Below, in pieces: positions 33,691 to 60,708 of a stretch of 64,000 nt of DNA (within the stretch, counting starts at the first letter, position 1; each line of letters opens with the position of its first letter). The stretch is from Leeuwenhoekiella palythoae (GTDB lineage Bacteria > Bacteroidota > Bacteroidia > Flavobacteriales > Flavobacteriaceae). The stretch lies in assembly GCF_900130045.1 (NCBI RefSeq), contig NZ_FQXT01000005.1, positions 1 to 64,000 of the forward strand, read 5' to 3'. The notes under the pieces were generated by a model, which worked only from the letters and a program-made list of their open reading frames with translations, did no database searches and had not been told where the DNA came from. The translations under genes and the position numbers were made by a program.

Positions 33691-33710
33691 TTTTTTTGAT
33701 TCTTGTTTGA

Positions 33711-35035: not shown

Positions 35036-35342
35036 GAATTTTGCTTACAAACTGAAATTTCGTGGATATTTAACTAAATAAATGCTTGCTCAACATAAAT
35101 GTGACGAATTTACCTAGAATTGACAATTCAAATCTTTAAGCGAATACTGTTTTGATCCTCTCCAAAACCAACAAACAATTAAAAATGATCAGTTTTTGCA
35201 AAGTTTTGCCTCACAACTTCTAAAAGTTATCATAAAAAATAAAATAAATGTAAATCATACACTATCCTGCATATTCTCTGACTTCAACGCGCATCAACCC
35301 ACCTCCAACCCCCACAACTAAATGCATTTAGCAGATTTTAAG

Positions 35343-35387
35343 CAGGTTAGAGCAGGATAGTCAAAATTAGATTTCCTAATACATTTG
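35343..35387 (+). promoter_or_regulatory. FAS1/SusCD operon promoter with CAGG direct repeat
   Basis: CAGGTTAG (35343-35350) and CAGGATAG (35353-35360) form a direct repeat with 10-base period. Exactly 19 bases later comes TACATTTG (35380-35387), a perfect -7 box. The predicted leader to the FAS1 ATG at 35469 is about 75 bases. A near-identical element precedes the sulfatase gene. Confidence 0.7.
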
Positions 35388-35468: not shown

Positions 35469-37703
35469 ATGAATAGACCATTACTCACGCACATCTTATT
35501 TCTCTGTTGCGCAATCGTTATCGCTAGTTGCAGCTCTAAAGAATTTGATGAATATTATGCTAGACCCGATGACCTTGAGGAGCCTATTTATCAACAATTA
35601 GAAGCTCGAGGAAATTTTACTGTGCTTACACAACTTATTGAAAAAGCCAATTACAAAGACATCTTAGGAAAAGCTGGTTACTGGACCATGATCGCCCCAA
35701 ACGATGAGGCTTTTGAGCGTTTCTTTCAAGAACAAGGTATCGCCAACGTTAGTGCAATCGATTCCGTCTTGGCAAACAAGATCGTTAGATACGCGCTTAT
35801 CTATAATGCCTTCAGAACAGAGCGTCTTTCAGACTATCAATCTAATACAGGCTGGGAAGAAGACAACGCATTTAGAAGAAGAACCGCCTATTATGATGGT
35901 TTTGAAGTCAAAACAGTAGATGGAAACGAAATCGTTGTCGCCGGTTCAAACCGGAATAACGCTCCTGACGGCGACCCTTACATTCCCGGGGATAACAACA
36001 ATAAGTACCTCACCTATTTTGTAGATGAATACATGACCGCCAATGGCTTAGGAGCCTTTGATTACAATTATTTCTTCCCAGGGCAATCGTATACAGGCTT
36101 TAATGTACTGGGTTCTTCGATGGTCAATGCTGATATTGTTGCAGAAAACGGGATCATTCACGAAGTTGATGAAGTCTCGCTTCCATTAATCAATCTCGAT
36201 CAAAAGCTTGAAACCAGCAGCGAATACAGCCTTTTTAGAAGTATCCTTGAGGACAATCTTGTAAACTATGTGTTTGATCAGGATGCGACCACTACCTATC
36301 AGAATTTTACTAGAAATACAGATCAGGTTTACATAAAAGTATATGATCCTGCGCTATCTTTTTCACCAAATAATGAAAACTACCTTAAAGAAGCAGACAA
36401 TGATGGGCAGAGCGATGCTTATACCATGTTTGTTCCTGAGAATAGCGTTTTACAGAGTTTTATTGATGAAGTCTTGCTCAAGAATTATGCATCGCTAGAC
36501 CTTCTCCCAAAATATGTTTTTGAGGATTTTGTGAATGCGCATATGGTACAAAATGCAGTCTGGCCTTCGCTGGTGGAAGCCTATAGTAATGCACTAGAAG
36601 AAGATATACGCATTGATTTAAGCACTGAAGTAAATGAAGCTCAAGTTTTGAGCAATGGCTTCTTCTATGGCACCAATAAGGTACAAGAGTCTAACTTATT
36701 TTTTAGTGTATATACTTCGGCGTATTTAGATCCTGAATTTACTTTAGCGACACGCTTGTATAATGATGGTTCAGGCTATCGCGAAATCATAAGCAATATC
36801 AATAGCAGATACACGCTGTTCCTGCCGTCTGATGATGTTCTTAGAGATTTAGGTTACGATTACAACATTAACCGTGAAGAATGGGTCTATACAAATCCTG
36901 CTACCGGAAACACCGTTGCAGGTACCATTGCCAGGTCTCGTTTGTTGCGCGTGCTTTATAACGGAATTATCCCTACGCCTAATGACGAACTTAATGACCT
37001 TTCCGGTTCTGGAATCATTCGTTCCGGTGATTTTGACCTTCCGGGAGAATACATTAAATGGGAAAACAATACGGTCTTTGCTGCCGGAAATGAGGTCTTA
37101 GGCAACCGAGTAAACATTATAGGATTTGAAGATCAGCGCAACGGCCGCACCTATTATATTGACAATTTACTGGAATTTAGTGAAGAAGCGCCCGGTTTAG
37201 ATATTATGCGCCTGGCGGAAGAACCTGATTCAGAATACAGCAATTTTTATAATTATCTGGAGAATTCTTTACTATATGATCCCGCTGCCGGAAGCATTAC
37301 CGGTGTTGAGCTGGGTACATCTTACACCTTTGTGGTACCCAATAATGCAGCTATTGAACAAGCAGTACGAGATGGTGTCCTACCGGGTGATTCCACCACG
37401 GGAATCCCTGACTTTAACCCTTCAAATGGAGGACAACAGGATCAGGTAGCAGACTTTATACGTTACCACATTCTTGCTACCCGAACTGCTTCAGACGATG
37501 GTTTGATCAGCGGCCAAATAGAAACTTTACGTAGAGACGGCATTGGAGAAAAAACCTATATCGGTTTAATAACCGGCCCTGGCGAATTGAGCTTCGTAGA
37601 TTCCGCAGGACGCATCGCCGATTATATTCCCAGCGCCAGCAACAACCTTGCAGATCGCAGTTTAATACACCTAGTAGATAACTACCTTTTATATACAGAA
37701 TAA
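35469..37703 (+). CDS. Lipoprotein with about four fasciclin (FAS1) domains
   Basis: A 744-residue lipoprotein (Cys21, IVIASC). FAS1-like units can be traced by their hydrophobic helix and the TxFxPxNxAF motif: about residues 40-235 (YWTMIAPNDEAFERFF, then GIIHEVDEV), 236-425 (SEYSLFRSILEDNLVNYVF), 425-590 (YTLFLPSDDVLRDLGY) and 590-744 (YTFVVPNNAAIEQAV, then SLIHLVDNYLL). The domains carry long insertions. FAS1 folds mediate adhesion and sometimes carbohydrate contact. It is separated from the next SusC gene by one base, so it heads a coupled operon. A surface glycan-binding role is inferred from position, not shown. Confidence 0.85.
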   Translation: MNRPLLTHILFLCCAIVIASCSSKEFDEYYARPDDLEEPIYQQLEARGNFTVLTQLIEKANYKDILGKAGYWTMIAPNDEAFERFFQEQGIANVSAIDSVLANKIVRYALIYNAFRTERLSDYQSNTGWEEDNAFRRRTAYYDGFEVKTVDGNEIVVAGSNRNNAPDGDPYIPGDNNNKYLTYFVDEYMTANGLGAFDYNYFFPGQSYTGFNVLGSSMVNADIVAENGIIHEVDEVSLPLINLDQKLETSSEYSLFRSILEDNLVNYVFDQDATTTYQNFTRNTDQVYIKVYDPALSFSPNNENYLKEADNDGQSDAYTMFVPENSVLQSFIDEVLLKNYASLDLLPKYVFEDFVNAHMVQNAVWPSLVEAYSNALEEDIRIDLSTEVNEAQVLSNGFFYGTNKVQESNLFFSVYTSAYLDPEFTLATRLYNDGSGYREIISNINSRYTLFLPSDDVLRDLGYDYNINREEWVYTNPATGNTVAGTIARSRLLRVLYNGIIPTPNDELNDLSGSGIIRSGDFDLPGEYIKWENNTVFAAGNEVLGNRVNIIGFEDQRNGRTYYIDNLLEFSEEAPGLDIMRLAEEPDSEYSNFYNYLENSLLYDPAAGSITGVELGTSYTFVVPNNAAIEQAVRDGVLPGDSTTGIPDFNPSNGGQQDQVADFIRYHILATRTASDDGLISGQIETLRRDGIGEKTYIGLITGPGELSFVDSAGRIADYIPSASNNLADRSLIHLVDNYLLYTE

Positions 37704-37704
37704 G

Positions 37705-40700
37705 ATGAGACAACTTTACACAACTATACATTATTGTTTCACCATAATCCTTTTTATTCTAGTAAGTAATCAAACGCTTGCTCAAGATGCCAATATGGTA
37801 GTTAGAGGTACTATTTTAGATAGCTCTAATAATCAACCCATACCCGGGGCAACGATTGCTGAACAAGATGCCGAAAACAGAACGGTAACCGGAGTCATTG
37901 CAGATTTTGACGGAAATTTTGCCATACGTGTAAAAAGCCGAAGCAATAAACTGGTTATTTCAACTTTAGGATACACTTCGCAAACGATACCGCTTTCAGG
38001 ACAATCCAGCTACACTATTAATCTTACGCCATCAGTAGATGAACTTGATGAAGTAATGATTAGTGTTGAAAAACCTACAGAAAGTGGACTCCTCGATATT
38101 TCAGAACGAAATATGACCACCAGTACTGTTACGGTAAAGGCGGCAGATGTAGAAAATACTCAGGCTGCTTCTATAGACGAAGCCTTGCAAGGGCGCGTTC
38201 CTGGTGTGGATATCACGGCAAACTCGGGGGATCCCGGAGCAGGAATGCAAATACGCATCCGTGGAACTTCATCTATCACCGGTTCGTCTGATCCACTCGT
38301 GGTTGTTGACGGAATGCCTTATGAGACTTCAATCCCTGAGGATTTTAACTTTGGCTCTGCTGACGAACAAGGCTATGCGGCATTATTAAATATCGCACCC
38401 TCAGATATTGAAAGTATTACCATACTTAAAGATGCGGCAGCTACAGCAATGTGGGGAGCACGTGCAGCAAGTGGGGTGCTTGTCATCAATACCAAACGGG
38501 GTTCTGTAGGTGCACCAAAAATCGGATACACTTTTACGGGTACTTTTATGAAGTTACCGCGTACCATACCTATGTTAAGCGGAGATCAATATTCTCAATT
38601 GATTCCTGAGGAATTTATGAATCGCAATGGTACGCCACTAAATACCCTTACTGTAAAAGAATTTCAATACGATCCTCAAGAGGTATATTTCTATAAAAAC
38701 TACGGTAATAATACAGATTGGGTTGATGCCATTTCGCAGACCGGTTTAACGGGAGAACACAATCTTTCTCTACAAGGTGGTGGTGAGAAAGCGCGCTACT
38801 ACACTTCAGTAGGTTATTACGATTCTAAAGGTGTAACTAAAGGAACCGCTTTTCAGCGTATTAATGGGCGTCTGAATTTAGATTATGTTGTTTCAGACAG
38901 AATAAGATTCAAGGCTGATATCGCTTACACACATACGGTTACAGACCGAAACTACGTTAACGGAACCAGCAGCGGAGACCGACTCAGAAGCGTCGCTTAT
39001 ACTAAAATGCCTAATATGAGCATCTATGAGTATGACGATGTAGGAGATCTTACTCCTAATTATTTCTCTCCTGCCCAAAATATTCAAGGCGCCTATAGCC
39101 GAACCTACAATCCTGTAGCAATGGCAGAATATGCGACCAACGAACAGACAGGAGAACGTATCGTACCGCATTTCAATCTAAAAGTAGATTTAATCCCACG
39201 CCGATTGATCTCGACTTTTGATCTGCAATTTGACTTCAACAGTACCAAGGCCAAAGCATTTTTACCACAAAATGCAACCGGAAGACCGTTTACAGAAACT
39301 GTGGTCAACCAAGCTTCTGATGCGGATGTAGATATTGCTAGTGTAACCTCAAAGACTAATCTTATTTACACACCGGAGATTGGCAAAGATCACTCGTTGC
39401 AAACGCTTTTATCTATTCAAACCAATGATTTTAGATACGAGTCTCACCAGGCACTGACTTCAAACACAGCGTCTTCATTGCTTACAGACCCGTCTGTTCC
39501 TTCCAGAACACAAAATGCGGAATTGCAACTTTATAATAACAATAGTCAGTCTCGCAACGTCGCTGCATTAGTAAATGCTCAATACAGTTTACTGGATCGT
39601 TATATTCTGAATGTAGGTGTACGTGGCGACGGAAATTCAAAATTTGGTCCGGGTAATCGCTATGCACTTTTCCCTTCTGTTTCTACGCGATGGAGAGTTT
39701 CGGGAGAGCCTTTTATGGATAACTATGATTTTATTGATGACTTGAGTTTTAGAGCCAGTTATGGTCAATCAGGTCGCGCACCGCGTTACGATTACCGCTA
39801 TTTTAATGTCTACGGAAACTTTAATTCTTCTTATTTAGGAATGAACGGGGTTTACCCACAAAACATTGAACTCGACAATCTACGTTGGGAAACCCTCACC
39901 GGGCAGAACATTGGTTTAAACCTACAAATGTTTAACCGAAGAATTATGCTTGATGTTGATGTCTATAAAAACCGAACAAAAGATCTGTTGTTCCAGAATG
40001 TAGATTTAACCACCGTATCGGGTTACAGCAGCCTTTCTGATCAAAACGTAGGTACTTTAGATAACCAAGGTTGGGAAGTAGGACTTTACACCACTCCTAT
40101 TAAAACAGATAAATGGAAGGTGGACTTCAACTTCAACATTGCGAGCAACCAGAATATCATTAGAGAAATTTCAGAATTCTACCCAAGCGAAAGCGGTAAT
40201 GTAGATCGTAATGGAGAGTTCAAGCGCTTTTTACAAACTGACAATCCTTTTGGTTCGTTTTACGGCTATCGCTTTAAAGGTGTGTATCCTGACTTAGAAT
40301 CCACGCAAGCGCGGGATGCTAATGGCAATGTGATCACCGGGCCTAATGGTGAAACGGTTTACATGCGCTTCAACTACCCTAATACAGATTATATTTTTCA
40401 ACCGGGAGACGCTATCTATGAAGACATCAATAAAGATGGAAACATAGACAGTAGAGATGTGGTTTATCTGGGCAATAGTAACCCAAAATTCACCGGCGGT
40501 TTTGGACCTTCTGTAACCTTTAATGATCAGTTTAAGCTGTTGTTGTTTTTCACCTATCGTCTGGATTATGACATCGTGAATGGTACTGATATGTTGACAA
40601 CCAATATGTACACGTATGACAATCAGAGTACTGCAGTACTGTCTAGATGGAGAAATCCGGGAGACCAGACCAATATGCCTCGCGCGGTGTACGGTGCCGG

Positions 40701-40983
40701 TTACAACTGGTTAGGTTCAGATCGTTATGTAGAAGATGCTTCTTTTGTGCGTTTCCGCTCTGCGACCTTCAGCTACAACTTTACAAAACCTTTTCTCAAA
40801 AAATGGAAACTTGATGACCTGCGCGTATATGTAACAGCAGACAACCTGCTCACATTTACTAATTATCGCGGTCAGGACCCTGAAGTGAATATGCGTGGTG
40901 GCGATCCTTTTGGAATTGCAATTGACTACTCAAGAACGCCTCCTACGCGCCGATTTACCTTAGGAATACAAACTCGATTTTAA
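37705..40983 (+). CDS. SusC/RagA TonB-dependent transporter (FAS1 locus, first)
   Basis: A 1092-residue SusC-like receptor with signal peptide (to about LAQDA), N-terminal carboxypeptidase-regulatory-like domain (RGTILDSSNNQPIPGATI) and plug with LQGRVPGVDIT, SDPLVVVDGMPYE and KDAAATAMWGARAASGVLVINTK. The barrel ends in RRFTLGIQTRF. The family linker is altered: DELDEVMISVEKP replaces the common VVVGYGT. It is nearly overlapping with the FAS1 gene upstream and paired with a SusD after 17 bases. The imported glycan is unknown. Confidence 0.95.
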   Translation: MRQLYTTIHYCFTIILFILVSNQTLAQDANMVVRGTILDSSNNQPIPGATIAEQDAENRTVTGVIADFDGNFAIRVKSRSNKLVISTLGYTSQTIPLSGQSSYTINLTPSVDELDEVMISVEKPTESGLLDISERNMTTSTVTVKAADVENTQAASIDEALQGRVPGVDITANSGDPGAGMQIRIRGTSSITGSSDPLVVVDGMPYETSIPEDFNFGSADEQGYAALLNIAPSDIESITILKDAAATAMWGARAASGVLVINTKRGSVGAPKIGYTFTGTFMKLPRTIPMLSGDQYSQLIPEEFMNRNGTPLNTLTVKEFQYDPQEVYFYKNYGNNTDWVDAISQTGLTGEHNLSLQGGGEKARYYTSVGYYDSKGVTKGTAFQRINGRLNLDYVVSDRIRFKADIAYTHTVTDRNYVNGTSSGDRLRSVAYTKMPNMSIYEYDDVGDLTPNYFSPAQNIQGAYSRTYNPVAMAEYATNEQTGERIVPHFNLKVDLIPRRLISTFDLQFDFNSTKAKAFLPQNATGRPFTETVVNQASDADVDIASVTSKTNLIYTPEIGKDHSLQTLLSIQTNDFRYESHQALTSNTASSLLTDPSVPSRTQNAELQLYNNNSQSRNVAALVNAQYSLLDRYILNVGVRGDGNSKFGPGNRYALFPSVSTRWRVSGEPFMDNYDFIDDLSFRASYGQSGRAPRYDYRYFNVYGNFNSSYLGMNGVYPQNIELDNLRWETLTGQNIGLNLQMFNRRIMLDVDVYKNRTKDLLFQNVDLTTVSGYSSLSDQNVGTLDNQGWEVGLYTTPIKTDKWKVDFNFNIASNQNIIREISEFYPSESGNVDRNGEFKRFLQTDNPFGSFYGYRFKGVYPDLESTQARDANGNVITGPNGETVYMRFNYPNTDYIFQPGDAIYEDINKDGNIDSRDVVYLGNSNPKFTGGFGPSVTFNDQFKLLLFFTYRLDYDIVNGTDMLTTNMYTYDNQSTAVLSRWRNPGDQTNMPRAVYGAGYNWLGSDRYVEDASFVRFRSATFSYNFTKPFLKKWKLDDLRVYVTADNLLTFTNYRGQDPEVNMRGGDPFGIAIDYSRTPPTRRFTLGIQTRF

Positions 40984-41000
40984 TTAGAACAATCATATCT

Positions 41001-42494
41001 ATGCAAACAAGAATTACACATATACTCGCTATCCTTCTTGCAGCATTAAGTCTGTCTTGTGATAGTTATTTAGACCTCAGACCTGAGAATGGTACTGTAC
41101 GCCAAGAATTCTGGCAAACTAAAGAAGATGTTCAGGCAGCAGTGATAGGCATTTATTCTGCAATGCTGAACACACCGCCATCAGAAAGCGATCTAACGCT
41201 CGCTGAATATTTATTTATGTACGGCGAATTACGCGGAGGAATGGTGAGTCCGGCTGCTTTTACTTCAAACGATCAAAGCGATATCATAACCACAAATATT
41301 TTACCGTCAAACAGTATTACGACCTGGTCTCAATTTTATCGCATTATCAACTATTGTAATACGGTGATCGATCTTGCACCAGACGTGCTTGAGGAAGACC
41401 CAACACTCACACAAGAGCAACTCAACAATTATTTATCTGAAGCTTTGGCGATACGTGCTTACTTATATTTCACGCTAGCGAAATCGTTTAAAGATGTACC
41501 GCTTAAACTTGACGCCACCTTGTCTGATGGAGATAATTTCCAACTTGAAACCACTCCACAAGATCAAATTTTTGCGCAAGTGCTTGTTGATCTTAACGAT
41601 GCAGAGCGCCTAAGTGTTGAAGATTATGGCAACACGCCTGAAAACAAAGGCCGCATTACAAAATTTGCCATCAATGCGATGCAGGCAGATCTACACCTGT
41701 GGTTAGAAAATTATGATGAGGCTTTAGTCGCTGCTGATAAGATCATCAACTCAGGACAATTTGAATTGATAGATGCGAGTCCGCAATGGTTTACCACGGT
41801 TTTTGCCTTAGGCAATTCTACCGAGAGCATTTTTGAACTTCAATACACACCAGAAAATCGCGGTCCGTTTTACGGAATCTTTTTACAACAGCCTCAATAT
41901 CTGGCCGCTCCTGCGGTGCTGGAAGAAGTATTTGGGGTAGACTTCGATGAGCCTGAAAACAAAGACGTGCGCGGCGAACGTGCATCACTGGTTCCGGGAA
42001 CCAATGAAATTTACAAATTCACCGGTCTTAACGAAGACCAGCGCAAAGCTTTACAAGAATCAGACACGCACTGGTTTGTTTACAGATATTCTGATGCTCT
42101 ATTGATGAAAGCTGAAGCCCTCAACGAATTAGGAAGAGGCGCCGAAGCGATCAGTATTATTGAAGATCTCAGAGAAAAAAGAGCTGCCATAGCGCAAACG
42201 CAAGAACAGGTTTCGCCTCAGGATCAAGATGGGATAAGGCGTTATATTCTGGCAGAACGTGCGCGCGAATTTGCCTTTGAAGGAAAACGCTGGTTTGATG
42301 TATTGCGTAACGCGCGTAAGAACAACTACGCCTATTTAGACATCTTACTTGGTGTGGCGCTGCGCAGCGCTCCTGCCAACCAACAGCAAAGTATTCTTGC
42401 AAAACTTCAGGATCCTAACAGCCACTATTTACCTATAAATACGTTTGAGCTGTACACTAATAAAGCACTCACACAGAATCCATTCTACAAATAA
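41001..42494 (+). CDS. SusD/RagB lipoprotein (FAS1 locus, first)
   Basis: A 497-residue SusD-like lipoprotein (signal to Cys20, ALSLSC). It starts DSYLDLRPENGTVRQEFWQTKEDVQAAVIGIYSAM. The TPR-type core has ALAIRAYLYFTLAKSFKDVPL, and the C-terminal signature is YILAERAREFAFEGKRWFDVLR. It forms the lid of the preceding SusC. It is followed after nine bases by a second FAS1 lipoprotein gene, where a surface glycan-binding protein gene would often lie. Confidence 0.94.
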   Translation: MQTRITHILAILLAALSLSCDSYLDLRPENGTVRQEFWQTKEDVQAAVIGIYSAMLNTPPSESDLTLAEYLFMYGELRGGMVSPAAFTSNDQSDIITTNILPSNSITTWSQFYRIINYCNTVIDLAPDVLEEDPTLTQEQLNNYLSEALAIRAYLYFTLAKSFKDVPLKLDATLSDGDNFQLETTPQDQIFAQVLVDLNDAERLSVEDYGNTPENKGRITKFAINAMQADLHLWLENYDEALVAADKIINSGQFELIDASPQWFTTVFALGNSTESIFELQYTPENRGPFYGIFLQQPQYLAAPAVLEEVFGVDFDEPENKDVRGERASLVPGTNEIYKFTGLNEDQRKALQESDTHWFVYRYSDALLMKAEALNELGRGAEAISIIEDLREKRAAIAQTQEQVSPQDQDGIRRYILAERAREFAFEGKRWFDVLRNARKNNYAYLDILLGVALRSAPANQQQSILAKLQDPNSHYLPINTFELYTNKALTQNPFYK

Positions 42495-42503
42495 TATCAA
42501 GCT

Positions 42504-44195
42504 ATGAAAACACATTTAAAAGGGTTCAAACTTACATCAGTCTTCATACTTATAGCTTTAGCTAGTATGGTTTTTGGGTGTACTCAAGAAAAATATAAGG
42601 AGTCTACAGATGAGACTCTAAATATCACAGAATTTCTAAGAGCCAACGAAGAGGAGTATTCACTATTCCTTGAGATTTTAGAAGTGACAGACTACGCTTC
42701 TTTTATGAATACCTATGGGACCTATACCCTATTTCTTCCTACCAATGCTGCCATTGAAGGCTTTTTAGGAGATGTAGGCGCAGGAAGTATATCAGATGTT
42801 CCGCTTGAAGATTTACAAGAGCTTGCTAAGCTGCACATACTTTCTGATGTTGTGACCACTGTTGAATTTAATGATGGAAAAATCGCAACGCCAAGCCTGC
42901 AAGGTCAATTTTTGATCACCGGTGCTTCTAATATTAATGGCGAATCAAGTATAACCATAAACAAAGATTCGCGCATTATCACGTCAAATCTTGAAGTAGG
43001 TAATGGGGTGATTCACGTGATTGACAAGGCGCTTCGTGTTGCTGATAAAACACTGGCTGAAACCATTGATGCAGACCCGGAATTATCATTATTTGCTGAA
43101 GCGGTACGCGAAACAGGGTGGTATGATGTTTTAGATCAGCCGGTCACTTATGACCAAGACAGTATTTCAAGCCACGTTAGCGTTTTGGCACAAACCAATG
43201 CGATTTTTCAAGAGGCCGGCTTAAATTCTATCGAAGATTTAAAAGCACGTTACAGCCACCTTGACGATCCTACTAATCCAGAAGATAGTTTAAACCTATT
43301 TGTGGCCTACCGCATAATTCCTGAGTTAGATTACTTGGCAGATCTTGCGGTAAAGTCAGTGGTTCTCACTAAAGCTCCTTTAGAAGTAATCAGTGTAAAA
43401 CTCGCTAGTGATTCTTTATTACTCAATGAGGAAACCTTCAACGGTATTTTTGAACCGGGCGTTCAGATTAATAGAGCGCAAAGTGATATCACGGCGTCTA
43501 ACGGTGTGTTGCACTATGTAAATGATAATTTCTTTATTAAAAAACGTTTTCCGGCCCCTGTATATTTTGATGTTGCAGATCAACCGGAATACAGACAACT
43601 AAGTGCCGTTTTTAGAAAACCGGGTAACTATGCCGAGTTGGCAAGATCAGAATTATCTGAAGTAACCTGGGAAGGTAATGAAGCCTTTAAAATGGGGTAT
43701 CTGGCCGCTGCCACTGGTGATGGAGCGCAGCTTTCTCAGGCTTGGCACGGTGATGTTGTAGAGCTTTTAAGACACAGAACCGGAGTGATCAACAATCTGG
43801 CTTTTACCACACCTGTGATCATAAAAGGACGCTACAAAATTTGGGTTTCCTATCGTCAAAATGCTCGTGCATCAAGTTCTGTAAGAGTATTGTTTAACGG
43901 CGAAGCATTACCACGCCTGATCAATTTTACCGAATATGGTAATACCGAGCTTCCTGAGCGTGTCCTGGAATCTCAGGGATATAAGCGTCACTTGAGTGTT
44001 ACCACCAGCAGATTTAATTCGCGATTAGCTGGTATTGTTGAAGTGCCTACCACAGGAAGACACACCATTACTTTGGAGTCGCTTGCTTATGCCGGGGGAC
44101 AATCTTGGATTGATGTTATCGAATTCAGGCCTGTAGATATGGATCAGCTGTATCCAAAATTTGAAGCAGGAGGCGACGGACTCATTTATGAATAA
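42504..44195 (+). CDS. FAS1-domain lipoprotein with C-terminal beta-sandwich module
   Basis: A 563-residue lipoprotein (Cys26, SMVFGC). Two FAS1 units are seen at about residues 40-180 (GTYTLFLPTNAAIEGFL, GNGVIHVIDKALRV) and 185-355 (ending SNGVLHYVNDNFFI). Residues 365-563 form a separate beta-rich module with KIWVSYRQNARASSSVRVLF, TTGRHTITLESL and the closing QSWIDVIEFRPV. That layout resembles galactose-binding-like carbohydrate modules. It lies directly after SusD and may be the surface glycan-binding protein of the first pair. Confidence 0.82.
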   Translation: MKTHLKGFKLTSVFILIALASMVFGCTQEKYKESTDETLNITEFLRANEEEYSLFLEILEVTDYASFMNTYGTYTLFLPTNAAIEGFLGDVGAGSISDVPLEDLQELAKLHILSDVVTTVEFNDGKIATPSLQGQFLITGASNINGESSITINKDSRIITSNLEVGNGVIHVIDKALRVADKTLAETIDADPELSLFAEAVRETGWYDVLDQPVTYDQDSISSHVSVLAQTNAIFQEAGLNSIEDLKARYSHLDDPTNPEDSLNLFVAYRIIPELDYLADLAVKSVVLTKAPLEVISVKLASDSLLLNEETFNGIFEPGVQINRAQSDITASNGVLHYVNDNFFIKKRFPAPVYFDVADQPEYRQLSAVFRKPGNYAELARSELSEVTWEGNEAFKMGYLAAATGDGAQLSQAWHGDVVELLRHRTGVINNLAFTTPVIIKGRYKIWVSYRQNARASSSVRVLFNGEALPRLINFTEYGNTELPERVLESQGYKRHLSVTTSRFNSRLAGIVEVPTTGRHTITLESLAYAGGQSWIDVIEFRPVDMDQLYPKFEAGGDGLIYE

Positions 44196-44226
44196 AATCA
44201 AACACACTAAACAATTCCATAAAAGG

Positions 44227-45684
44227 ATGATCTATCTAAATAAACATACACGCATTTTTACTGCCGGCATCGCCCTTCTGGCAATGCTGTCGTGCTCTGA
44301 TCCGTGGGAAGAACATAGCGCTACAACTGATGTAAATCTAAATTCTACTTTAAATCAACGTATTACTGCTACCGCAGAAACTTCAGAATTTGGTGCGCTT
44401 TTAGAAGAAACCGGTTATGATAAAGTTCTGGCAGGTTCTAAAACCTACACGGTTTGGGCGCCTACTAATGAAGCGATGGCAACTATTGAAGCAGATGCAT
44501 TGGCTGACGCTTCGGCTAAAAAGCTTTTTATTGAAAATCATATTGCGCTTACTGCCTTCTCATCGGTTACTGAAGTAGACACCTTAACGGTGCAAATGCT
44601 TTCGCACAAGTATTTAGAATTTAAAAATGGATCTGTAATGGCTGATGCCGATGTCGTTACCGCAGATCAATATGCTTCAAATGGCTTATTTCACATAATT
44701 GATAAAGCTTTAGTGCCTAAACAAAATATTTGGGAATATTTAAACACTGATGCTTCGGCATATGCTATGAGCTCCTTTTTGATTGACCTTAATGAATTTA
44801 ACCTATATCAAAGCGATAGCACTGCAAAAGCAACCGCAGCACTTATGCCTGAACTCTTTTCAGATTCTTTGACCAATTCGTTTTTCACCAATGTTTACAA
44901 CCTCAACAATGAGCAGAATAAGTATACCTTTTTCTTGATGGAAGATGAAGCCTATCAAAGCGAAGTTCAAAAGCTCGAACCTTATTTGATAAAAAGCAAC
45001 GAAGATTCTACCACTACCTATGCCAGCTATTTCACTGTACGGGACTTGGCATTTCACAAAGCAATTGCTCGTCAAAATTTGCCAGATACACTCACTTCAA
45101 AGTTTGGTGTTAAAGTCCCTATAGATACAAATGCTATAGTTGAAGAAGTGCAGTTGAGTAATGGAATTGTATATGTTATGCGCAGTTTAGATGTGCCTTT
45201 AGAGACCCGTTTGCTGACTACGCTAATTGAAGGTGAAGAACCATCAGGTTTTAGTCAAGGTGATAAACGTGGAAACACCTATTATCGCGAAAAAGAGGAT
45301 CCTGACGGAGAACTGTTTTATGACATCATGGTGCAAAACCACGAAGTGCCGCTGTTCTCAATCTACTATAATGCTAACAATCTTTATAGCACGACTTACG
45401 AGGTTTACTGGCGTGCGATCAATGATATACAATCTAACACGTTTCAACAACGCTTAAGGTTTGGCGGCACTATTCAAGAAGATGGTACGGTGACAGATCC
45501 TATTGCTACCCTTGATTATACTGATGTTCCTCCTAATACCTATGAGGAGATTTATATTGGCGAATTCACTCTAGACCAGGCCGGAATGCTTGACCTGATC
45601 TCACTGATTGCTACCAACACAAGCTCTACAGGTGCTAATACCCTGACTTTAGATTATTTAAAACTAGTGCCCGTAATTAAGTAA
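44227..45684 (+). CDS. FAS1-domain lipoprotein, second surface partner
   Basis: A lipoprotein of about 485 residues with two FAS1 units (SKTYTVWAPTNEAMATI, NGLFHIIDKAL; then a more divergent unit with NKYTFFLMEDEAYQSEV and NGIVYVMRSL). The C-terminal beta-rich module (about 365-485) ends in LTLDYLKLVPV, like the preceding protein's IDVIEF. Start choice: ATG at 44227 gives a normal lipoprotein signal (Cys23, LAMLSC). ATGs at 44161 and 44188 are in frame but would overlap the upstream gene. Its stop overlaps the next SusC start as TAATG, so it is coupled to the second pair. Confidence 0.82.
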   Translation: MIYLNKHTRIFTAGIALLAMLSCSDPWEEHSATTDVNLNSTLNQRITATAETSEFGALLEETGYDKVLAGSKTYTVWAPTNEAMATIEADALADASAKKLFIENHIALTAFSSVTEVDTLTVQMLSHKYLEFKNGSVMADADVVTADQYASNGLFHIIDKALVPKQNIWEYLNTDASAYAMSSFLIDLNEFNLYQSDSTAKATAALMPELFSDSLTNSFFTNVYNLNNEQNKYTFFLMEDEAYQSEVQKLEPYLIKSNEDSTTTYASYFTVRDLAFHKAIARQNLPDTLTSKFGVKVPIDTNAIVEEVQLSNGIVYVMRSLDVPLETRLLTTLIEGEEPSGFSQGDKRGNTYYREKEDPDGELFYDIMVQNHEVPLFSIYYNANNLYSTTYEVYWRAINDIQSNTFQQRLRFGGTIQEDGTVTDPIATLDYTDVPPNTYEEIYIGEFTLDQAGMLDLISLIATNTSSTGANTLTLDYLKLVPVIK

Positions 45685-48600
45685 TGTCTTTTAAACCAAT
45701 AGTTATGCTCAAAATATTACAACTAACCTGTATTTTATGCTTGTTTCTCTATGGGGGAGTTACTCAAGGGCTCTATGCTCAAACTTCTGCTGACACTACT
45801 GATGTAGCTTCTGAGTCTTCAAAAGGAATGGCAGTAACAGGAATCATTAAGAATGCTGCGAACGGTAAAGGCATTTCTGGAATAAACATCGCCGTGCCTA
45901 ATTTTTCTGCTGCCATCAGTAATGAAGATGGAAGTTTTTCTATAAATGTGCCGCACCTAAATGCGCTGCTTAGCGTTAGCGGTCAAGAGTTTCAAAGTAA
46001 AGTATACCCGCTCAACAACAGATCTAGCGGAATTGAAATTTTGCTTTATGAAGCCAACTATTCTCAGTTTTATCAAAATTCAGAATTACCCGGAGGGCAA
46101 GCTTTACAATATACTAATCCAAAGGCTGCCACTACGGTAAACTTTTCTGAAGGACAATGGGGCAACCCGGTTAATGAGTCGGTTGCAGATTTTTTACAAG
46201 GGCGTGTAGCCGGCCTCAACAGTGTACGTAAATCTGGCGTGCCAGGTGCGGGCGCAAACCTTACACTACGAGGTTTTAATTCGCTTTATGCTACAAATAA
46301 ACCTTTACTTATTGTAGACGGTATGATATACGATGATGAAGATTATGGATCCGGAATCATTCAGTATACCGGTTCTTCTCCACTTTCTATGCTAGAGGTA
46401 AAAGACATTGAGGATATAACTGTTTTGAAAGATGGCTCTTCAATTTACGGAACCAAAGGATCTAACGGGGTGATCATCATAACCACCACCCGACCGGTTG
46501 ATCTAAGTACAAAAATAGATTTTACGATGTACGGTGGAATCAATCAAGAACCTAATGAACTGCCGGTATTGCGGTCAGGAGACTACAGAACTTATTTATC
46601 TCAGCTTGTTGCCACACGCGGTGATACTCAGCAACAAATAGCCAATTACCCTTGGATGAATGATGATAGACAAAGTGAGAATTACTATGCCTATCATAAT
46701 CAGACCAACTGGCAAGATCAGGTTTTTAAAAGCAGTGCAAACCAAAACTATTTTTTAAAAATTAGAGGTGGTGATGATATTGCAAAATATGGCCTTTCGG
46801 TAGGATATCTCAACAGTGAAGGTGTAATTAGAAATACAGGCCTTGAGCGGTATAACACCCGCTTGAATGCCGCACTTAGATTAACCGAAAAACTGACCGT
46901 AAACGCAAATCTTTCCTTTATTCATAATACAGAGCATTTACAAGATCAAGGTTTAGCGTATAAAACCAGCCCAATGTATCTGGCACTTACTAAAGCTCCA
47001 TTTACAGCAATAAATGTGATCAATGCAGCCGGAGAAGTTTCTCCTAATTTATCTGATGTTGATCTATTTAATGTGGGGAATCCGCTTGCAATTATTGAGA
47101 ACGGAATTGGCATTAATAAAAATTATCGCTTTTACGGGAATCTGGACTTCAATTATAGCATCGCCGAAAATCTACAGGCTAATATGCTGGTTGGGCTTAC
47201 GTATAACAAAGAACGAGAGTCTTTCTTTATACCTGATTTTGGTGTGGCAGATGTTATTTTACCTACGGCGATAGGTAACAACCGCAGCGGTAGTGAAGTA
47301 CAACGTTTATACTCTCTGTATACTGACACCTATTTGAATTATGGAAAACGCTTCAATAATACGCACGGTTTAGATCTCAGATTAGGCTTTAGAACACAAA
47401 GCAACGAATCTGAAAGCGATCTAGGTCTTGGATTCAATTCGGCTACAGATGATTTTACAACAGTGGGTGCCGGGAGCAATTTACTTCGTGTTGTAGGAGG
47501 TTCTTTAGGCGAATGGAAGTGGATCAACGGCTATCTCAGCGCAGAATATGATTACCTCAACAAATATTATTTAACGCTTAATGGAGCAATTGACAGTTCT
47601 AGTCGCTTTGGAGATGATATTCAAAATGGAGGCTTCAACATTGGAGATTCACAATTTGCAGCCTTAGGGTCTGTATCAGGAGCGTGGCTGCTTTCTTCAG
47701 AGGATCTTTTTAAAAATGCTTCGGCTTTAGACCTTTTAAAATTGAGAGCAAGCTACGGAGTAAGCGGTAACGATGATATTGGCAATTTTACTTCACAGCA
47801 GCTTTATGTATCCCAGAATCTTTTAGGGATTCAGGGCCTCGTTCGCGGAAATATTGGGAATCCCGAACTCAAATGGGAAACGGTTTCTAAACTGAACTTA
47901 GGTCTTGACTTGAGCTTGTTCAACGAGCGCTTTAATGCTTCAGTTGATGTGTATCAAAATAAAACTTCTGATATGATTACTTACGAGCCGGTTAATACCA
48001 CAAGCGGTTTTAACTATGTAGTTTCTAACAGTGGCGATATGCAAACACAAGGTATTGACTTAAGCCTGAATACCCGACTGGTAAATACTTCTGATGTTAA
48101 GTTTGACTTAGGACTCAACCTTTCGCGCTACGTCAATGAGGTGACCGGTTTACCTTCGGGACCTATTATTTCTGAATTTGGTGGCGCAACCTATATCACG
48201 CACGAAGGTCAGGATGCTAATTTATTTTTTGGATATGAGACTAATGGCGTTTATGCAAATACCGCCGACGCTCAAGCCGCAGGGTTAAGTAGAAGAATGG
48301 AAAATGGTGCGCTACGTGCTTTTAGTGGCGGTGATGTCATTTTTACAGATTTAAACAATGACGGCATTATTGACGATGATGATCGGGTCGTAATAGGAAA
48401 TCCTAATCCGGATCTCTTTGGAAGTTTCAGCGCTAACTTTAAATGGAAACGCTTAAGTATTTCGAGCTTATTCAATTTTTCGCTAGGCAATGATCTTTAC
48501 AATGGTGTACGCTATAATCTGGAGAAAATGAGTGGTTATGAGAACCAGACTATTGCTGTAAACAATCGCTGGGTTGCAGAAGGTCAGCAGACTACAATAC

Positions 48601-48896
48601 CTAGAGCAGTTTGGGGCGATCCATTAGGCAACGCTTCATTTTCTGATCGCTGGATTGAGGATGGCTCTTATTTACGACTTAAAACCCTCGTGGTGGCCTA
48701 TGATGTTTCAATAGATCTAGAACATATAAAATCATTTAAAGTATATGCTTCGGCAAATAACCTGTTTACGCTGACTGATTATTTAGGCTACGACCCAGAG
48801 TTCAGTGCGACTTCTTCCATTTTTGGTCAAGGAGCAGATCTGGGGTTAATGCCACAGTTTACTACAATACAAATGGGTTTAAGACTAGGACTATAA
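45684..48896 (+). CDS. SusC/RagA TonB-dependent transporter (FAS1 locus, second)
   Basis: A 1070-residue SusC-like receptor with signal peptide (to about GLYAQT), carboxypeptidase-regulatory-like domain (VTGIIKNAANGKGISGINIAV) and plug with LQGRVAGLNSVRKSGVPGAGANLTLRG (split here as RGFNSLYATNKPLLIVDG). Another plug motif is KDGSSIYGTKGSNGVIIITT. The barrel ends TTIQMGLRLGL. Like the first FAS1-locus SusC it lacks the VVVGYGT linker. Its ATG overlaps the previous stop by one base. It pairs with the SusD 12 bases downstream. Confidence 0.95.
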   Translation: MSFKPIVMLKILQLTCILCLFLYGGVTQGLYAQTSADTTDVASESSKGMAVTGIIKNAANGKGISGINIAVPNFSAAISNEDGSFSINVPHLNALLSVSGQEFQSKVYPLNNRSSGIEILLYEANYSQFYQNSELPGGQALQYTNPKAATTVNFSEGQWGNPVNESVADFLQGRVAGLNSVRKSGVPGAGANLTLRGFNSLYATNKPLLIVDGMIYDDEDYGSGIIQYTGSSPLSMLEVKDIEDITVLKDGSSIYGTKGSNGVIIITTTRPVDLSTKIDFTMYGGINQEPNELPVLRSGDYRTYLSQLVATRGDTQQQIANYPWMNDDRQSENYYAYHNQTNWQDQVFKSSANQNYFLKIRGGDDIAKYGLSVGYLNSEGVIRNTGLERYNTRLNAALRLTEKLTVNANLSFIHNTEHLQDQGLAYKTSPMYLALTKAPFTAINVINAAGEVSPNLSDVDLFNVGNPLAIIENGIGINKNYRFYGNLDFNYSIAENLQANMLVGLTYNKERESFFIPDFGVADVILPTAIGNNRSGSEVQRLYSLYTDTYLNYGKRFNNTHGLDLRLGFRTQSNESESDLGLGFNSATDDFTTVGAGSNLLRVVGGSLGEWKWINGYLSAEYDYLNKYYLTLNGAIDSSSRFGDDIQNGGFNIGDSQFAALGSVSGAWLLSSEDLFKNASALDLLKLRASYGVSGNDDIGNFTSQQLYVSQNLLGIQGLVRGNIGNPELKWETVSKLNLGLDLSLFNERFNASVDVYQNKTSDMITYEPVNTTSGFNYVVSNSGDMQTQGIDLSLNTRLVNTSDVKFDLGLNLSRYVNEVTGLPSGPIISEFGGATYITHEGQDANLFFGYETNGVYANTADAQAAGLSRRMENGALRAFSGGDVIFTDLNNDGIIDDDDRVVIGNPNPDLFGSFSANFKWKRLSISSLFNFSLGNDLYNGVRYNLEKMSGYENQTIAVNNRWVAEGQQTTIPRAVWGDPLGNASFSDRWIEDGSYLRLKTLVVAYDVSIDLEHIKSFKVYASANNLFTLTDYLGYDPEFSATSSIFGQGADLGLMPQFTTIQMGLRLGL

Positions 48897-48908
48897 TTTA
48901 AGAAAGAG

Positions 48909-50669
48909 ATGATGACACTATTTACAAATACAAAATATACGCTAAAGCTTGGGGCTCTTGCATTGTTCTTAGGATTAGGTTCTTGTCAAGAATATCTAAA
49001 TGTGGAACCTCAGGACCAACTGAATAAAGATCAGGTTTATCGCGATGTTTTTGACGCAGATGCCGCTGTGGTGGGTATCTATGGAAAGTTTATGGGACTT
49101 GCAGAAAAATACGTTGTTCTTAACGAATTGCGTGCAGACTTAGTAAGCCCTACCTATAATGCTGGTCCATTTTACACACAACTCAGCGAACATAGCGTAA
49201 CCGCTGAAAACCCATACGCAAGCCCGAAAGATTTCTATGAGGTAATCAACAATTGTAACGATGCGCTGAAGAATTTTGATCTTATGCGCGCTGATAACAG
49301 ATTAGACAGTAATGAATACAATGAGCGCTACTCAGATATAGGAACTTTAAGAAGTTGGTTATACTTACAATTAGGAATTCACTACGGTCAGGTGCCTTAC
49401 ATCACGGAGCCGGTCGAGAACCTAAATGATATTCGCAACCTCAATCAATATCCACGCATTCAATTTGAGGAATTATTAAATGAGCTCATCACATTCACCG
49501 AAGGCTTGCCTTATACAGATACTTACAGTGCCAATAGTACCTTACTCATAGATGTTGATGGGTATAACACCGGGAAATTTTTCATCAATAAAGAATGTTT
49601 GCTGGGTGATTTACATCTATGGCGAGGTAATTATGTGCAGGCAGCATCGCACTACAAAGTGGTTTTAGAAACCGCCTCAGACAGTGGTAGCGACTCTGAA
49701 CGCTATGATGTATACCGCGTAAAATATGCTGAGATCGCAAGCAATAATGACTTAGCTGTAGGTTATATACGTTACCGCGAGCAAGATGCTCAGGCGCTGA
49801 TCAATAATAATACGCAAGGTTGGCGTTCTATGTTTTCTAGAGAGCCAGATGCCTTATGGAACACCGAGTGGATCTGGTCACTACCCTTTGACTCCAGCTT
49901 TGCGCCTGAAAATCCGTTCATCAATTTATTTTCTAATCAGAATGGGAACTACCTACTCAAGCCGTCTCAAGAAGCGATGAATTTATGGGAAGATCAAACG
50001 CAGCTTAACGGGTTTCCTTATGATGCCCGCGGTTCTAAGTTCTCTTATTCCATGATTAACGGCGATCCGGTTATCATGAAGTATTTATATAACTACTTAG
50101 ACCCCGTAAGTCAATTACCGGTAGATGTATTTCAACGCGATGGCAGATGGTTTCTGTATCGTGCAGCAAAATTGCATTTACGTTATGCTGAAGCGGCAAA
50201 CCGCGATGGGCAACACCGTCTCGCTGATGCTTTACTCAACTATGGTTTACAAAATGAATATACCGTTGAAGGCGTTGAAGATGTGACAGATATAGAACAG
50301 ACGAATCTTCCGTTTCCATATGATTTTGATGCGAGACAAGGTGATTTCCCTTTCTATAGAGGAAATTGGTATCGCAACGGTGGTCTGCGAGGTAGAGCCT
50401 ATCTCGAGCGTGCGCCGGTTTATGGGGACAGCTTGATTTCCATAGAAAATAATTTAATTGAAGAAGCTGCGCTCGAACTTGCTTTTGAAGGCAATCGCTG
50501 GGGAGACTTAGTGCGCGTAGCAATACATCGTAACGATCCTGCATTTTTAGCTGATAAGATCTATGCTAAACTGAATGCGCAAGGCAATGCAGAAGCTTCT
50601 GCCGTACGTACCAAATTAATGTCTCAAGAAAACTGGTACCTCCCTTTTGTATGGAACGATGAAGAGTAA
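48909..50669 (+). CDS. SusD/RagB lipoprotein (FAS1 locus, second)
   Basis: A 586-residue SusD-like lipoprotein (signal to Cys26, LGLGSC), longer than the first one. It starts QEYLNVEPQDQLNKDQVYRDVFDADAAVVGIYGKF. Core motifs are IGTLRSWLYLQLGIHYGQVPYI, and the C-terminal signature is NLIEEAALELAFEGNRWGDLVRVAIHR. It closes the FAS1/SusCD operon, since a strong hairpin follows 48 bases after its stop. The extra length lies in central loops, which could widen the ligand site. Confidence 0.94.
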   Translation: MMTLFTNTKYTLKLGALALFLGLGSCQEYLNVEPQDQLNKDQVYRDVFDADAAVVGIYGKFMGLAEKYVVLNELRADLVSPTYNAGPFYTQLSEHSVTAENPYASPKDFYEVINNCNDALKNFDLMRADNRLDSNEYNERYSDIGTLRSWLYLQLGIHYGQVPYITEPVENLNDIRNLNQYPRIQFEELLNELITFTEGLPYTDTYSANSTLLIDVDGYNTGKFFINKECLLGDLHLWRGNYVQAASHYKVVLETASDSGSDSERYDVYRVKYAEIASNNDLAVGYIRYREQDAQALINNNTQGWRSMFSREPDALWNTEWIWSLPFDSSFAPENPFINLFSNQNGNYLLKPSQEAMNLWEDQTQLNGFPYDARGSKFSYSMINGDPVIMKYLYNYLDPVSQLPVDVFQRDGRWFLYRAAKLHLRYAEAANRDGQHRLADALLNYGLQNEYTVEGVEDVTDIEQTNLPFPYDFDARQGDFPFYRGNWYRNGGLRGRAYLERAPVYGDSLISIENNLIEEAALELAFEGNRWGDLVRVAIHRNDPAFLADKIYAKLNAQGNAEASAVRTKLMSQENWYLPFVWNDEE

Positions 50670-50750: not shown

Positions 50751-50779
50751 AAAGCAGTTTGTGTATTTCTACAAACACA

Positions 50780-50824
50780 CAGGAGAGAACAGGATAGAAT
50801 ACCTTAGCTTGATCGCTAACTTTG
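50780..50824 (+). promoter_or_regulatory. Sulfatase operon promoter with CAGG direct repeat
   Basis: CAGGAGAG (50780-50787) and CAGGATAG (50790-50797) repeat with 10-base period. Exactly 19 bases later comes TAACTTTG (50817-50824), a perfect TAnnTTTG box. The layout is the same as at 35343-35387. The leader to the sulfatase ATG is about 30 bases. Confidence 0.7.
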
Positions 50825-50862: not shown

Positions 50863-52248
50863 ATGCCAAGATTCTCATCAATTTTCTGTTTATTCTTTTC
50901 TTGCATAGTGTCAATTTTAGTAAGTGTTTCTTGCAAGGAAAATCACAGTACTAAATCTGAAGTTTCCAATGATAAACCGAACTTTTTAGTCATTATTGCT
51001 GATGACGCGGGCTGGAATGATTTAGGGATTCACGGTTCAGAAATCAAAACGCCTACTTTAGACAGTCTGGCCGCGCAAGGACTTCTTTTAGAACGTTACT
51101 ACACCTACCCCACCTGTTCCCCTGCTCGCGCAAGTTTCTTAACCGGGCGTCCGGCAAGCAGAATGGGCATCGTAGCTCCTATAAGTGGTCGCAGTGAACT
51201 CAATCTACCGGATAGCATTACAACCTTACCTCAGGCGCTTGGTGCGCTTAACTACAACACAGCATTAATGGGTAAATGGCATTTAGGCCTAAAACCCGAA
51301 AGTGGTCCCGAAGCCTATGGATTTGATTTTTCCTACGGATTTTTACACGGTCAACTAGATCAGTATGCGCATACGTATAAAAATGGCGACAGCACCTGGT
51401 ATAAAAATGGAAAATTCATCACCGAAGAAGGGCACGTAACAGATTTACTTACAGCTGGCGCGATACATTATTTAGACACTCTAAATCCGGAAAAACCCTT
51501 TTACCTGCAGTTGGCATACAGCGCACCACATATTCCGTTGCAGGAGCCTCAAGAATGGTTAGAACAGTACAGTTCAATTGCAGACAGTTCACGACGCGCT
51601 TATGCCGCTGCGATGAGTCATATGGATCACGGCATTGGCAAAGTGCTGCAGAAATTAAAGCAAACTCAAAGAGCTGAAAATACCATCATTCTTTTTATAA
51701 GCGATAACGGAGCTCAAGAACAATGGATTCCTACCACACAATATGAAGGTAAATATGGTCCTAATTATACTCTGGGCAGTAATCTACCGTTGAGGGATTT
51801 TAAAACCTCTAATTATGAAGGAGCCCTTCGTGTTCCTGCAATTTTTTCTTGGCCGAAACTCAATGCCAAAGGTTCGTCTTCAAATTATATTAATGTTTCA
51901 GACTGGATGCCTACCTTTTTACAATGGGCGCAGGCCACAGCAATACCGCCTTCGGTGGATGGGGAATCGATCGAAAAATTACTAACTTCATCAACAAGTG
52001 CACGCAAAAAGCCTATTTACACTCGAGGTCATTTGCAAGAATCTTTAATTGTTCCGCCGTTTAAACTGATTAGAACGCGCCACCTAGAGGGTCAAGCCGA
52101 TTTTGAATTGTATGATATTGAAAGTGACCCTTCAGAAACCCAAAATATAGTTTTAGAACACCCTAAGAAAGTTGATGAATTAAAAGTAATTTTAAAGGAA
52201 GAGTTTTCTAAAGATACTCCGCAAGTCAATGTTGAGCTTAAACATTAA
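50863..52248 (+). CDS. Family S1 sulfatase lipoprotein
   Basis: A 461-residue formylglycine-dependent sulfatase with a lipoprotein signal to Cys24 (SVSC). The CSPAR maturation signature (YPTCSPARASFLTGR) puts the modified cysteine at residue 85. Metal aspartates D47 and D48 lie in VIIADDAGWNDLG, and LMGKWHLG holds the usual Lys/His. It resembles arylsulfatase B-type (4-sulfohydrolase-like) members. It needs an anaerobic-type or FGE maturase that is not in the window. With rhamnose mutarotase downstream it suggests a sulfated, rhamnose-bearing glycan; this is inference. Confidence 0.93.
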   Translation: MPRFSSIFCLFFSCIVSILVSVSCKENHSTKSEVSNDKPNFLVIIADDAGWNDLGIHGSEIKTPTLDSLAAQGLLLERYYTYPTCSPARASFLTGRPASRMGIVAPISGRSELNLPDSITTLPQALGALNYNTALMGKWHLGLKPESGPEAYGFDFSYGFLHGQLDQYAHTYKNGDSTWYKNGKFITEEGHVTDLLTAGAIHYLDTLNPEKPFYLQLAYSAPHIPLQEPQEWLEQYSSIADSSRRAYAAAMSHMDHGIGKVLQKLKQTQRAENTIILFISDNGAQEQWIPTTQYEGKYGPNYTLGSNLPLRDFKTSNYEGALRVPAIFSWPKLNAKGSSSNYINVSDWMPTFLQWAQATAIPPSVDGESIEKLLTSSTSARKKPIYTRGHLQESLIVPPFKLIRTRHLEGQADFELYDIESDPSETQNIVLEHPKKVDELKVILKEEFSKDTPQVNVELKH

Positions 52249-53672: not shown

Positions 53673-53676
53673 CCCT

Positions 53677-60699: not shown

Positions 60700-60708
60700 A
60701 ATGTGTAA

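Follow-up and report, generated by a model that had tools for sequence, protein, structure and literature searches.

A conserved array of FAS1 lipoproteins and two sister SusCD pairs in Leeuwenhoekiella palythoae, a candidate outer-membrane cassette for rhamnogalacturonan-I fragments

Gene content and organization of the array

The window analyzed here comprises 64,000 nucleotides of Leeuwenhoekiella palythoae (contig NZ_FQXT01000005.1 of assembly GCF_900130045.1, positions 1 to 64,000, forward strand). At positions 35469-50669 its plus strand carries seven open reading frames (ORFs) in the order FAS1-1, SusC1, SusD1, FAS1-2, FAS1-3, SusC2, SusD2. Three genes for lipoproteins with fasciclin (FAS1) domains are thus interleaved with two SusC/SusD (SusCD) pairs, an array referred to below as the cassette. 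This order had been claimed in an initial annotation made from the sequence alone and was confirmed by the ORFs and by Pfam and NCBIfam searches. Fasciclin (PF02469) scored 83.8, 75.8 and 64.6 bits in proteins 1, 4 and 5 (cut-off 22); Pfam SusC domains were found in proteins 2 and 6 and SusD in proteins 3 and 7. With TIGR04056 (curated cut-off 368.25), SusC1 and SusC2 reached 748.7 and 618.2 bits, and the Pfam SusD match amounted to 108.1 bits for SusD1 and was weak, at 28.9 bits, for SusD2 (cut-off 23.1).

FAS1-1 (35469..37703) encodes a 744-amino-acid (aa) lipoprotein with four Pfam Fasciclin stretches. It is followed by SusC1 (37705..40983; 1092 aa), which consists of an N-terminal extension domain, the TonB-box-like sequence LDEVMI, a plug and a barrel, and by the 497-aa lipoprotein SusD1 (41001..42494). 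FAS1-2 (42504..44195) is a lipoprotein of 563 aa in which two FAS1 stretches precede a C-terminal module resembling a carbohydrate-binding module (CBM; modelled stretch 43545-44192). The lipoprotein FAS1-3 (44188..45684) has one Pfam FAS1 stretch, a second recognized by eye only, and a CBM6/CBM35-like C-terminal module (modelled stretch 45220-45681); its ORF is listed from 44161, the TTG start in the ORF list being mechanical, and an alternative ATG lies at 44227. SusC2 (45684..48896; 1070 aa), a sister paralogue of SusC1 by sequence, has no TonB box, and the array ends with SusD2 (48909..50669), a divergent SusD lipoprotein of 586 aa.

The first three junctions are gaps of 1, 17 and 9 bases. 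FAS1-2 and FAS1-3 overlap if translation of the latter starts at the ATG at 44188 and are 31 bases apart if it starts at 44227. FAS1-3 and SusC2 overlap by one base in TAATG (45682-45686), and a gap of 12 bases separates SusC2 from SusD2. Both the short gaps and the TAATG overlap had been pointed out in the initial annotation, which took the genes for a coupled plus-strand operon; the tight packing agrees with this, and the array is probably co-transcribed.

Conservation and distribution of the cassette

An alignment of five full-length FAS1-2 proteins from a draw of 198 genomes of the phylum served as the query for a scan of a titled-genome collection in which nearby SusCD genes were not required. 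The scan yielded 78 loci (kept from the best 80 of 118); being seeded with FAS1-2, it cannot reveal unlinked SusC2-SusD2 pairs. The complete seven-gene order was present at 70 of the 78 loci, with median intergenic gaps of 2-38 bp, and six further loci are truncated by contig ends and consistent with it as far as they are visible. This recurrence, with SusCD not demanded by the search, is far beyond chance. The initial annotation had proposed a neighbourhood survey and held that FAS1 genes not conserved beside SusCD would speak against its reading; they are conserved there, so that this objection falls away. At two loci an orphan FAS1-2 gene occurs without SusCD among glycosidase genes (L075:9995-11713 and L076:8117-9829, from Flavobacterium palustre and F. 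fluvii), and both genomes also hold a full cassette (L073, L074). An extra SusC or SusD lies near the cassette at 11 of the 70 complete loci, and some genomes have further complete copies (L147-L149). As a side observation, SusC1 of Leeuwenhoekiella parthenopeia is apparently split into three ORFs (L048:5142-8459), by assembly error or decay.

The nearest FAS1-2 orthologue is that of L. blandensis MED217, with 85% identity. Cassette genera span several Bacteroidota families and include Leeuwenhoekiella, Flavobacterium, Zunongwangia, Pedobacter, Mucilaginibacter, Chitinophaga, Niastella, Thermoflavifilum and Pontibacter; one record titled 'Williamsia sp.' (L095) also holds the cassette and is presumably a mislabelled Bacteroidota bin. 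The seven proteins co-diverge, with correlations of pairwise distances of r 0.92-0.96 over 68 loci. The cassette is rare: full-length FAS1-2 was found in 5 of the 198 genomes of the phylum draw and in 5 of 299 genomes drawn from the family. All four phylum-draw carriers besides the window genome have the whole cassette; for two of them the fetched stretch ends within FAS1-1.

As a background, 28 further FAS1 neighbourhoods, hand-picked rather than random, were taken from the phylum-draw list plus locus L130. A six-gene form, FAS1-SusC-SusD-FAS1-SusC-SusD, occurs in two of them (L037, L130), and its second FAS1 protein is present in 2 of 395 genomes. Four have a single SusCD pair followed by FAS1 (L043, L044, L138, L142). 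The other 22 show no adjacent SusCD pair; among these, L137 has a pair five genes off, and L136 and L141 are cut short where their contigs stop. FAS1 is therefore no general companion of SusCD, whereas particular FAS1 families are.

FAS1 lipoproteins and their C-terminal modules

A lipobox-like sequence, called by a rule of our own, was present in 70 of 71 FAS1-1, 78 of 79 FAS1-2 and 73 of 75 FAS1-3 orthologues. As lipoprotein genes adjoining susCD at 70 of the 78 loci, the FAS1 genes appear to occupy the position of genes for surface glycan-binding proteins (SGBPs), as the initial annotation had put it, and glycan binding is predicted for their products. Pfam sees nothing but FAS1 in FAS1-1; FAS1-2 and FAS1-3 add the C-terminal modules, which had been described earlier as beta-sandwiches. 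AlphaFold2 models of both modules bear this description out. The FAS1-2 module was modelled from a 69-sequence alignment with a predicted local distance difference test score (pLDDT) of 97.1 and a predicted template-modelling score (pTM) of 0.93, and the FAS1-3 module from a 68-sequence alignment with a pLDDT of 95.8 and a pTM of 0.90. In Foldseek comparisons with the PDB, the FAS1-3 module matched mostly CBM6, CBM35 and related modules (best E 4.9e-6, a CBM6). The best match of the FAS1-2 module was MiXBM (E 8.1e-6), followed by weaker CBM35 and CBM6 matches with other beta-sandwiches between them. Identity in the structural matches to CBM6/CBM35 was about 7-19%, and no array protein gave a Pfam CBM match up to E 1, so that membership of CBM6 or CBM35 by sequence was not found. 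For FAS1-2 the assignment is further weakened by the moderate quality of its matches, with template-modelling scores normalized by target of at most 0.73, root-mean-square deviations of about 7-8 Å and other beta-sandwiches among the targets. We regard both modules as CBM6/CBM35-like predicted folds, that of FAS1-2 less closely so.

Alternatively, the FAS1 proteins could function in adhesion or cell-surface structure and belong to the array solely for the sake of co-regulation. Adhesion proteins are known to contain FAS1, according to the part of PMC6032426 available to us, an excerpt of PMC2668756 treats fasciclin as an adhesion domain in marine flavobacteria, and the 22 of 28 hand-picked neighbourhoods that lack an adjacent SusCD pair would suit such a role. 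The CBM-like ends of FAS1-2 and FAS1-3 and the presence of three FAS1 genes in place at 70 of 78 loci, co-diverging with SusCD, make it unlikely.

Absence of the TonB box from nearly all SusC2 orthologues

The TonB box was scored by alignment column after the N-terminal extension, a test on which we relied because pattern searches perform poorly for SusC1. A box-like sequence was found in 64 of 74 SusC1 orthologues and in 2 of 73 SusC2 orthologues; in the window, SusC1 has it and SusC2 does not. Among 14 further SusCs that were aligned, 13 have a box, and the exception is the second SusC of the six-gene cassette L037. Each six-gene cassette likewise has a second SusC without the TonB box, and there the whole N-terminal extension is missing too. 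All 38 SusCs of the window genome above the TIGR04056 cut-off were tested, and besides SusC1 and SusC2, 35 of 36 carry a box. In the second cassette copies (L147-L149), SusC2 passes the column test in none of three and SusC1 in two of three. Despite a box-like look, the SusC of locus L138, which has a single SusCD pair, does not pass either. Both SusD proteins have a lipobox-like sequence throughout (76 of 76 SusD1 and 70 of 70 SusD2 orthologues). A final leucine in place of phenylalanine in SusC2 (68 of 73) was considered as a second sign of decay and dropped, as leucine is likewise the last residue in 8 of 28 ordinary SusCs from this genome.

Four results count against a clean loss of the box from SusC2 alone. 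The lowest-scoring of the 38 SusCs of the window genome (L187, G000:C9:761700-765300) also lacks a box by the column test. A loose pattern, allowed anywhere in the linker, is found in 37 of 74 SusC1, 14 of 73 SusC2 and 13 of 14 further SusCs. The strict pattern, absent from all 73 SusC2 and present in 25 of 28 other SusCs, recovers only 26 of 74 SusC1 (an earlier pattern search gave 26 of 73). Finally, box-like strings lie near the right place in the SusC2 of four loci (L083, L102, L104, L109); these could be remnants or chance.

In a tree covering 15 loci, SusC1 and the first SusC of the six-gene cassettes form one clade (0.997), as do SusC2 and their second SusC (0.996). The combined clade is supported at 0.99 against 28 SusCs of the own genome and four SusCs of single-pair FAS1 loci; attraction is possible because the branches are long. 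On this tree, SusC1 and SusC2 are sister paralogues. The simplest history would be that a FAS1-SusC-SusD unit was duplicated in tandem, the second unit having an additional FAS1 gene, and that the TonB box decayed in the second SusC copy before the six- and seven-gene forms diverged.

In the excerpt of PMC7782687 that deals with Bt1763, deletion and alanine mutants show that the TonB box following the N-terminal extension is needed for uptake. With the box missing from SusC2 in nearly all orthologues, the first pair alone resembles a TonB-powered importer that could work by itself. SusC2 is classed as a SusC by its sequence and not as an established TonB-dependent transporter. It might nevertheless be that the two SusCD pairs are importers independent of each other, taking up different RG-I (rhamnogalacturonan-I) fragments and merely encoded together, with SusC2 using a diverged TonB-binding sequence that was not recognized. 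SusC2 does match plug and barrel, it has a dedicated SusD2, the mean pairwise identities are 0.54 and 0.55 (68 loci), and the four SusC2 proteins with box-like strings fit this possibility. We consider it rather unlikely, as the box is gone from the aligned position in 71 of 73 SusC2 proteins, yet present in 35 of 36 other SusCs of the genome, and as both six-gene relatives share the loss, with the N-terminal extension gone as well. Comparably unlikely, in our judgment, is that SusC2-SusD2 is a decommissioned pore that acts as a static surface platform for glycan binding without direct contact to SusC1. Loss of the TonB box while lid and barrel stay would be expected of such a platform. The arguments against it are indirect: the fixed gene order and the co-divergence with SusC1 (r 0.953) suit a common complex at least equally well, but all seven proteins co-diverge alike.

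Rhamnogalacturonan-I as the probable substrate

The substrate was approached through enzymes that co-occur with the cassette. In a chosen set of 50 cassette genomes, made up of 49 from the 78 loci and the window genome, the RG-I lyase family PL11 (PF21348) was present in 48. Among the phylum-draw genomes, 4 of the 5 with the cassette had PL11 above the cut-off, compared with 5 of the 193 without it (6 at E 0.001; Fisher p 1e-5). The family draw, with weak matches counted, had PL11 in all 5 genomes that encode full-length FAS1-2 and in 9 of the remaining 294 (p 1e-7). PL11 lies on the FAS1-2 contig within 30 kb in 20 of the 50 genomes and within 70 kb in 25, a count that leaves out five weak or fragmentary PL11 matches (E above 1e-20). 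The CE12-type domain PF21254 was found in 28 of the 50 genomes, above the cut-off in 23.

The genes within 10 kb of the cassette were clustered for the 78 loci and the window (79 sources), giving the tabulation of co-occurring enzymes that had been proposed with the initial annotation. The clusters included a CE12-like GDSL esterase (14 of 79), GH2 (12), a GntR/Peripla_BP_3 regulator (12), GH105/88 (7), GH28 (7), GH115 (5), PL11 (4), a rhamnulokinase-like FGGY kinase (4), GH43 (3) and GH106 (3). The enzymes among them are established as RG-I enzymes; some flanking clusters are housekeeping genes, e.g. for a pseudouridine synthase and UbiA. Judged from this gene content and from the motif described below, the most likely substrate is the pectin RG-I.

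Several findings weigh against this assignment. PL11 is missing from two of the 50 cassette genomes (G231, G238), and nine genomes of the family draw have PL11 without full-length FAS1-2. Among polysaccharide lyase families, the co-occurrence counts covered PL11 only. The PL11 island of the window genome, which is on another contig than the cassette and tied to it by the motif described below only, adjoins two ordinary SusCD pairs (L129:641-10813); the cassette is therefore one of several ports and not the sole transporter. The idea that the island has no transporters of its own was dropped, as none occurs in its first 40 kb but these two pairs lie in the next 20 kb. Finally, 8 of the 79 sources, most of them Leeuwenhoekiella, have a sulfatase cluster close to the cassette. 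Plain RG-I needs no sulfatase.

The last point would fit another uronate/rhamnose polymer as the substrate, e.g. sulfated ulvan in marine strains, all the more as genes for a sulfatase, DUF4861 proteins, a GH88/105 enzyme and a rhamnose mutarotase adjoin the window cassette. PL11 occurs in cassette genomes of many genera, and CE12-like, GH28, GH115 and GH106 genes are among the neighbours, so that we hold such a substrate to be improbable; ulvan lyase families were not searched.

A shared direct-repeat motif

Upstream of the cassette lies an operator-like direct repeat with a 10-base period, RCAGGATRNNRCAGGATR, present with one mismatch at 35342..35359 on the plus strand; a single half-site, CAGGATAG, is found in the same region on the minus strand (35262..35269). 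A second copy with one mismatch (50779..50796, plus strand) is located in the gap before the sulfatase gene. Within 350 bp upstream of FAS1-1, the motif occurs at 55 of 71 loci with at most two mismatches and at 46 with at most one. The reversed pattern was found at 1 of 71 loci and 20 shuffled patterns at none. The motif is present at 35 of 38 Flavobacteriaceae-type loci versus 20 of 33 others.

Three sites of the window genome (C8:717655, 725338 and 746281) lie in and beside the PL11 island. By Pfam, the island contains genes for PL11, GH106, GH105/88, a GntR-type regulator and an FGGY kinase, and by cluster resemblance GH28, GH115, GH2 and CE12-like genes. One site (L129:480) is upstream of an ordinary SusCD pair beside the island. 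Altogether, the window genome has 22 sites with at most two mismatches, five at the cassette or the island and 17 elsewhere, versus four for the reversed control. With at most one mismatch, there are 8.1 sites per genome in 28 cassette genomes versus 1.1 in 28 Flavobacteriaceae genomes without the cassette. Among the exact sites listed (53 from 13 cassette genomes), 33 lie within 30 kb of FAS1-2 or PL11 and 20 do not, such regions making up 4.2% of those 13 genomes. In three genomes (G205, G214, G216), cassette and PL11 are on different contigs and motif sites occur on each. This distribution suggests that the motif is an operator tying the cassette to RG-I enzyme genes in one regulon. The GntR/Peripla_BP_3 regulator, encoded beside several cassettes and in the island, is no more than a candidate for a protein binding the motif, as loci with the regulator occur both with and without the motif.

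Genes flanking the cassette

Downstream of the cassette, genes for a sulfatase, a DUF4861 protein and an L-rhamnose mutarotase (families by domain search) follow on the plus strand at 50863..53997. Judged from the motif copy in front of them, they are likely a second transcript of the cassette regulon. Upstream and divergent from the cassette, genes for another DUF4861 protein and a GH88/GH105-type unsaturated uronyl hydrolase occupy 32686..34937 on the minus strand. The two DUF4861 proteins (32686-33690 and 52287-53672) thus flank the cassette on both sides; neither reaches the NCBIfam cut-off for the BT3233 family. The upstream pair belongs to a homogalacturonan/uronate polysaccharide utilization locus (PUL) on the minus strand (12361-34937) that abuts the cassette and has a LacI gene on the plus strand. 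Next to the hydrolase and DUF4861 genes, it encodes KduI, a short-chain dehydrogenase, UxaC, a PfkB kinase, a KDPG-type aldolase and a TRAP transporter; further upstream, also on the minus strand, are mannitol-dehydrogenase-type and altronate-dehydratase-type genes, GH28, an ordinary SusCD pair and a pectinesterase. One protein of this PUL combines esterase-type and pectinesterase domains. A curli-type cluster at 59281-63733 encodes CsgG, CsgF, CsgE and a 413-aa protein with curlin repeats.

Discussion

Taken together, we put the probability at roughly 0.62 that the array is a portable outer-membrane cassette for capture and import of RG-I fragments, made up of one powered SusCD pair, an unpowered sister pair and FAS1 lipoproteins of the SGBP kind. 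SusC1-SusD1 would be the TonB-driven importer. SusC2-SusD2, which keeps barrel, plug and lid, would most likely be its unpowered partner, given the missing TonB box, in a shared dimer or on a surface platform. The FAS1 domains may act as docking or spacer units, with glycan bound by the CBM6/35-like C-terminal heads of FAS1-2 and FAS1-3, and expression of the cassette would be coupled to that of the RG-I enzyme genes through the shared direct-repeat operator. More tentatively, and with somewhat less than even odds, we envisage a heteromeric utilisome: the duplication would have turned the usual SusCD homodimer into a fixed SusC1D1-SusC2D2 heterodimer in which TonB pulls on SusC1 only, SusC2D2 is the capture half, and a collar of FAS1 proteins and CBM-like heads captures the glycan. 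The initial annotation had suspected a double uptake machine for one complex glycan. The glycan can be narrowed, most likely, to RG-I; two equivalent pores are not supported, since only 2 of 73 SusC2 proteins have the box.

SusCD importers are a main route of glycan uptake in Bacteroidota and are regarded as self-sufficient units powered by TonB. A box-bearing SusC paired with a nearly always boxless sister offers a natural way to test the purpose of a second barrel. FAS1 domains gain a candidate role in polysaccharide uptake, and the cassette may serve as a genomic marker for likely RG-I users, with the motif outlining their putative regulon.

Among the papers listed in searches of the open-licence PMC literature, a scope that excludes preprints and most subscription papers, we found neither a description of the seven-gene cassette nor a division of labour between paralogous SusCD halves. 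A FAS1 domain protein is labelled in a figure legend on a Gramella PUL (PMC4891872), an excerpt on a mussel symbiont mentions fasciclin and SusCD (PMC10199937), and utilisomes and SusCDE complexes are treated in the accessible parts of PMC7618045 and PMC12611786. The uronate genes at 12-35 kb of the window resemble those of the Gramella pectin PUL, as far as the available text of PMC5306329 describes it. The same text reports G. flava to have no RG lyase and not to use RG, unlike the RG-I reading given here.

The cassette has much in common with the Bacteroides SusCD importers and the levan and dextran utilisomes, as portrayed in the sections available of PMC7782687 and PMC7618045: a SusC barrel with an N-terminal extension, a SusD lid and co-encoded surface lipoproteins. 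It differs from the Bacteroides utilisomes in having two paralogous SusCD pairs, one of them boxless, in having FAS1 proteins in place of the usual SGBP and glycoside hydrolase lipoproteins, and in lacking a hydrolase within its seven genes. Among solved sequences, periostin and TGFBIp come nearest to the FAS1 parts (phmmer, best 2.7e-21). FAS1 domains are common to both sides of this comparison; those of the cassette are parts of bacterial lipoproteins encoded beside SusCD, two of them with CBM-like heads, and not of matrix adhesion proteins.

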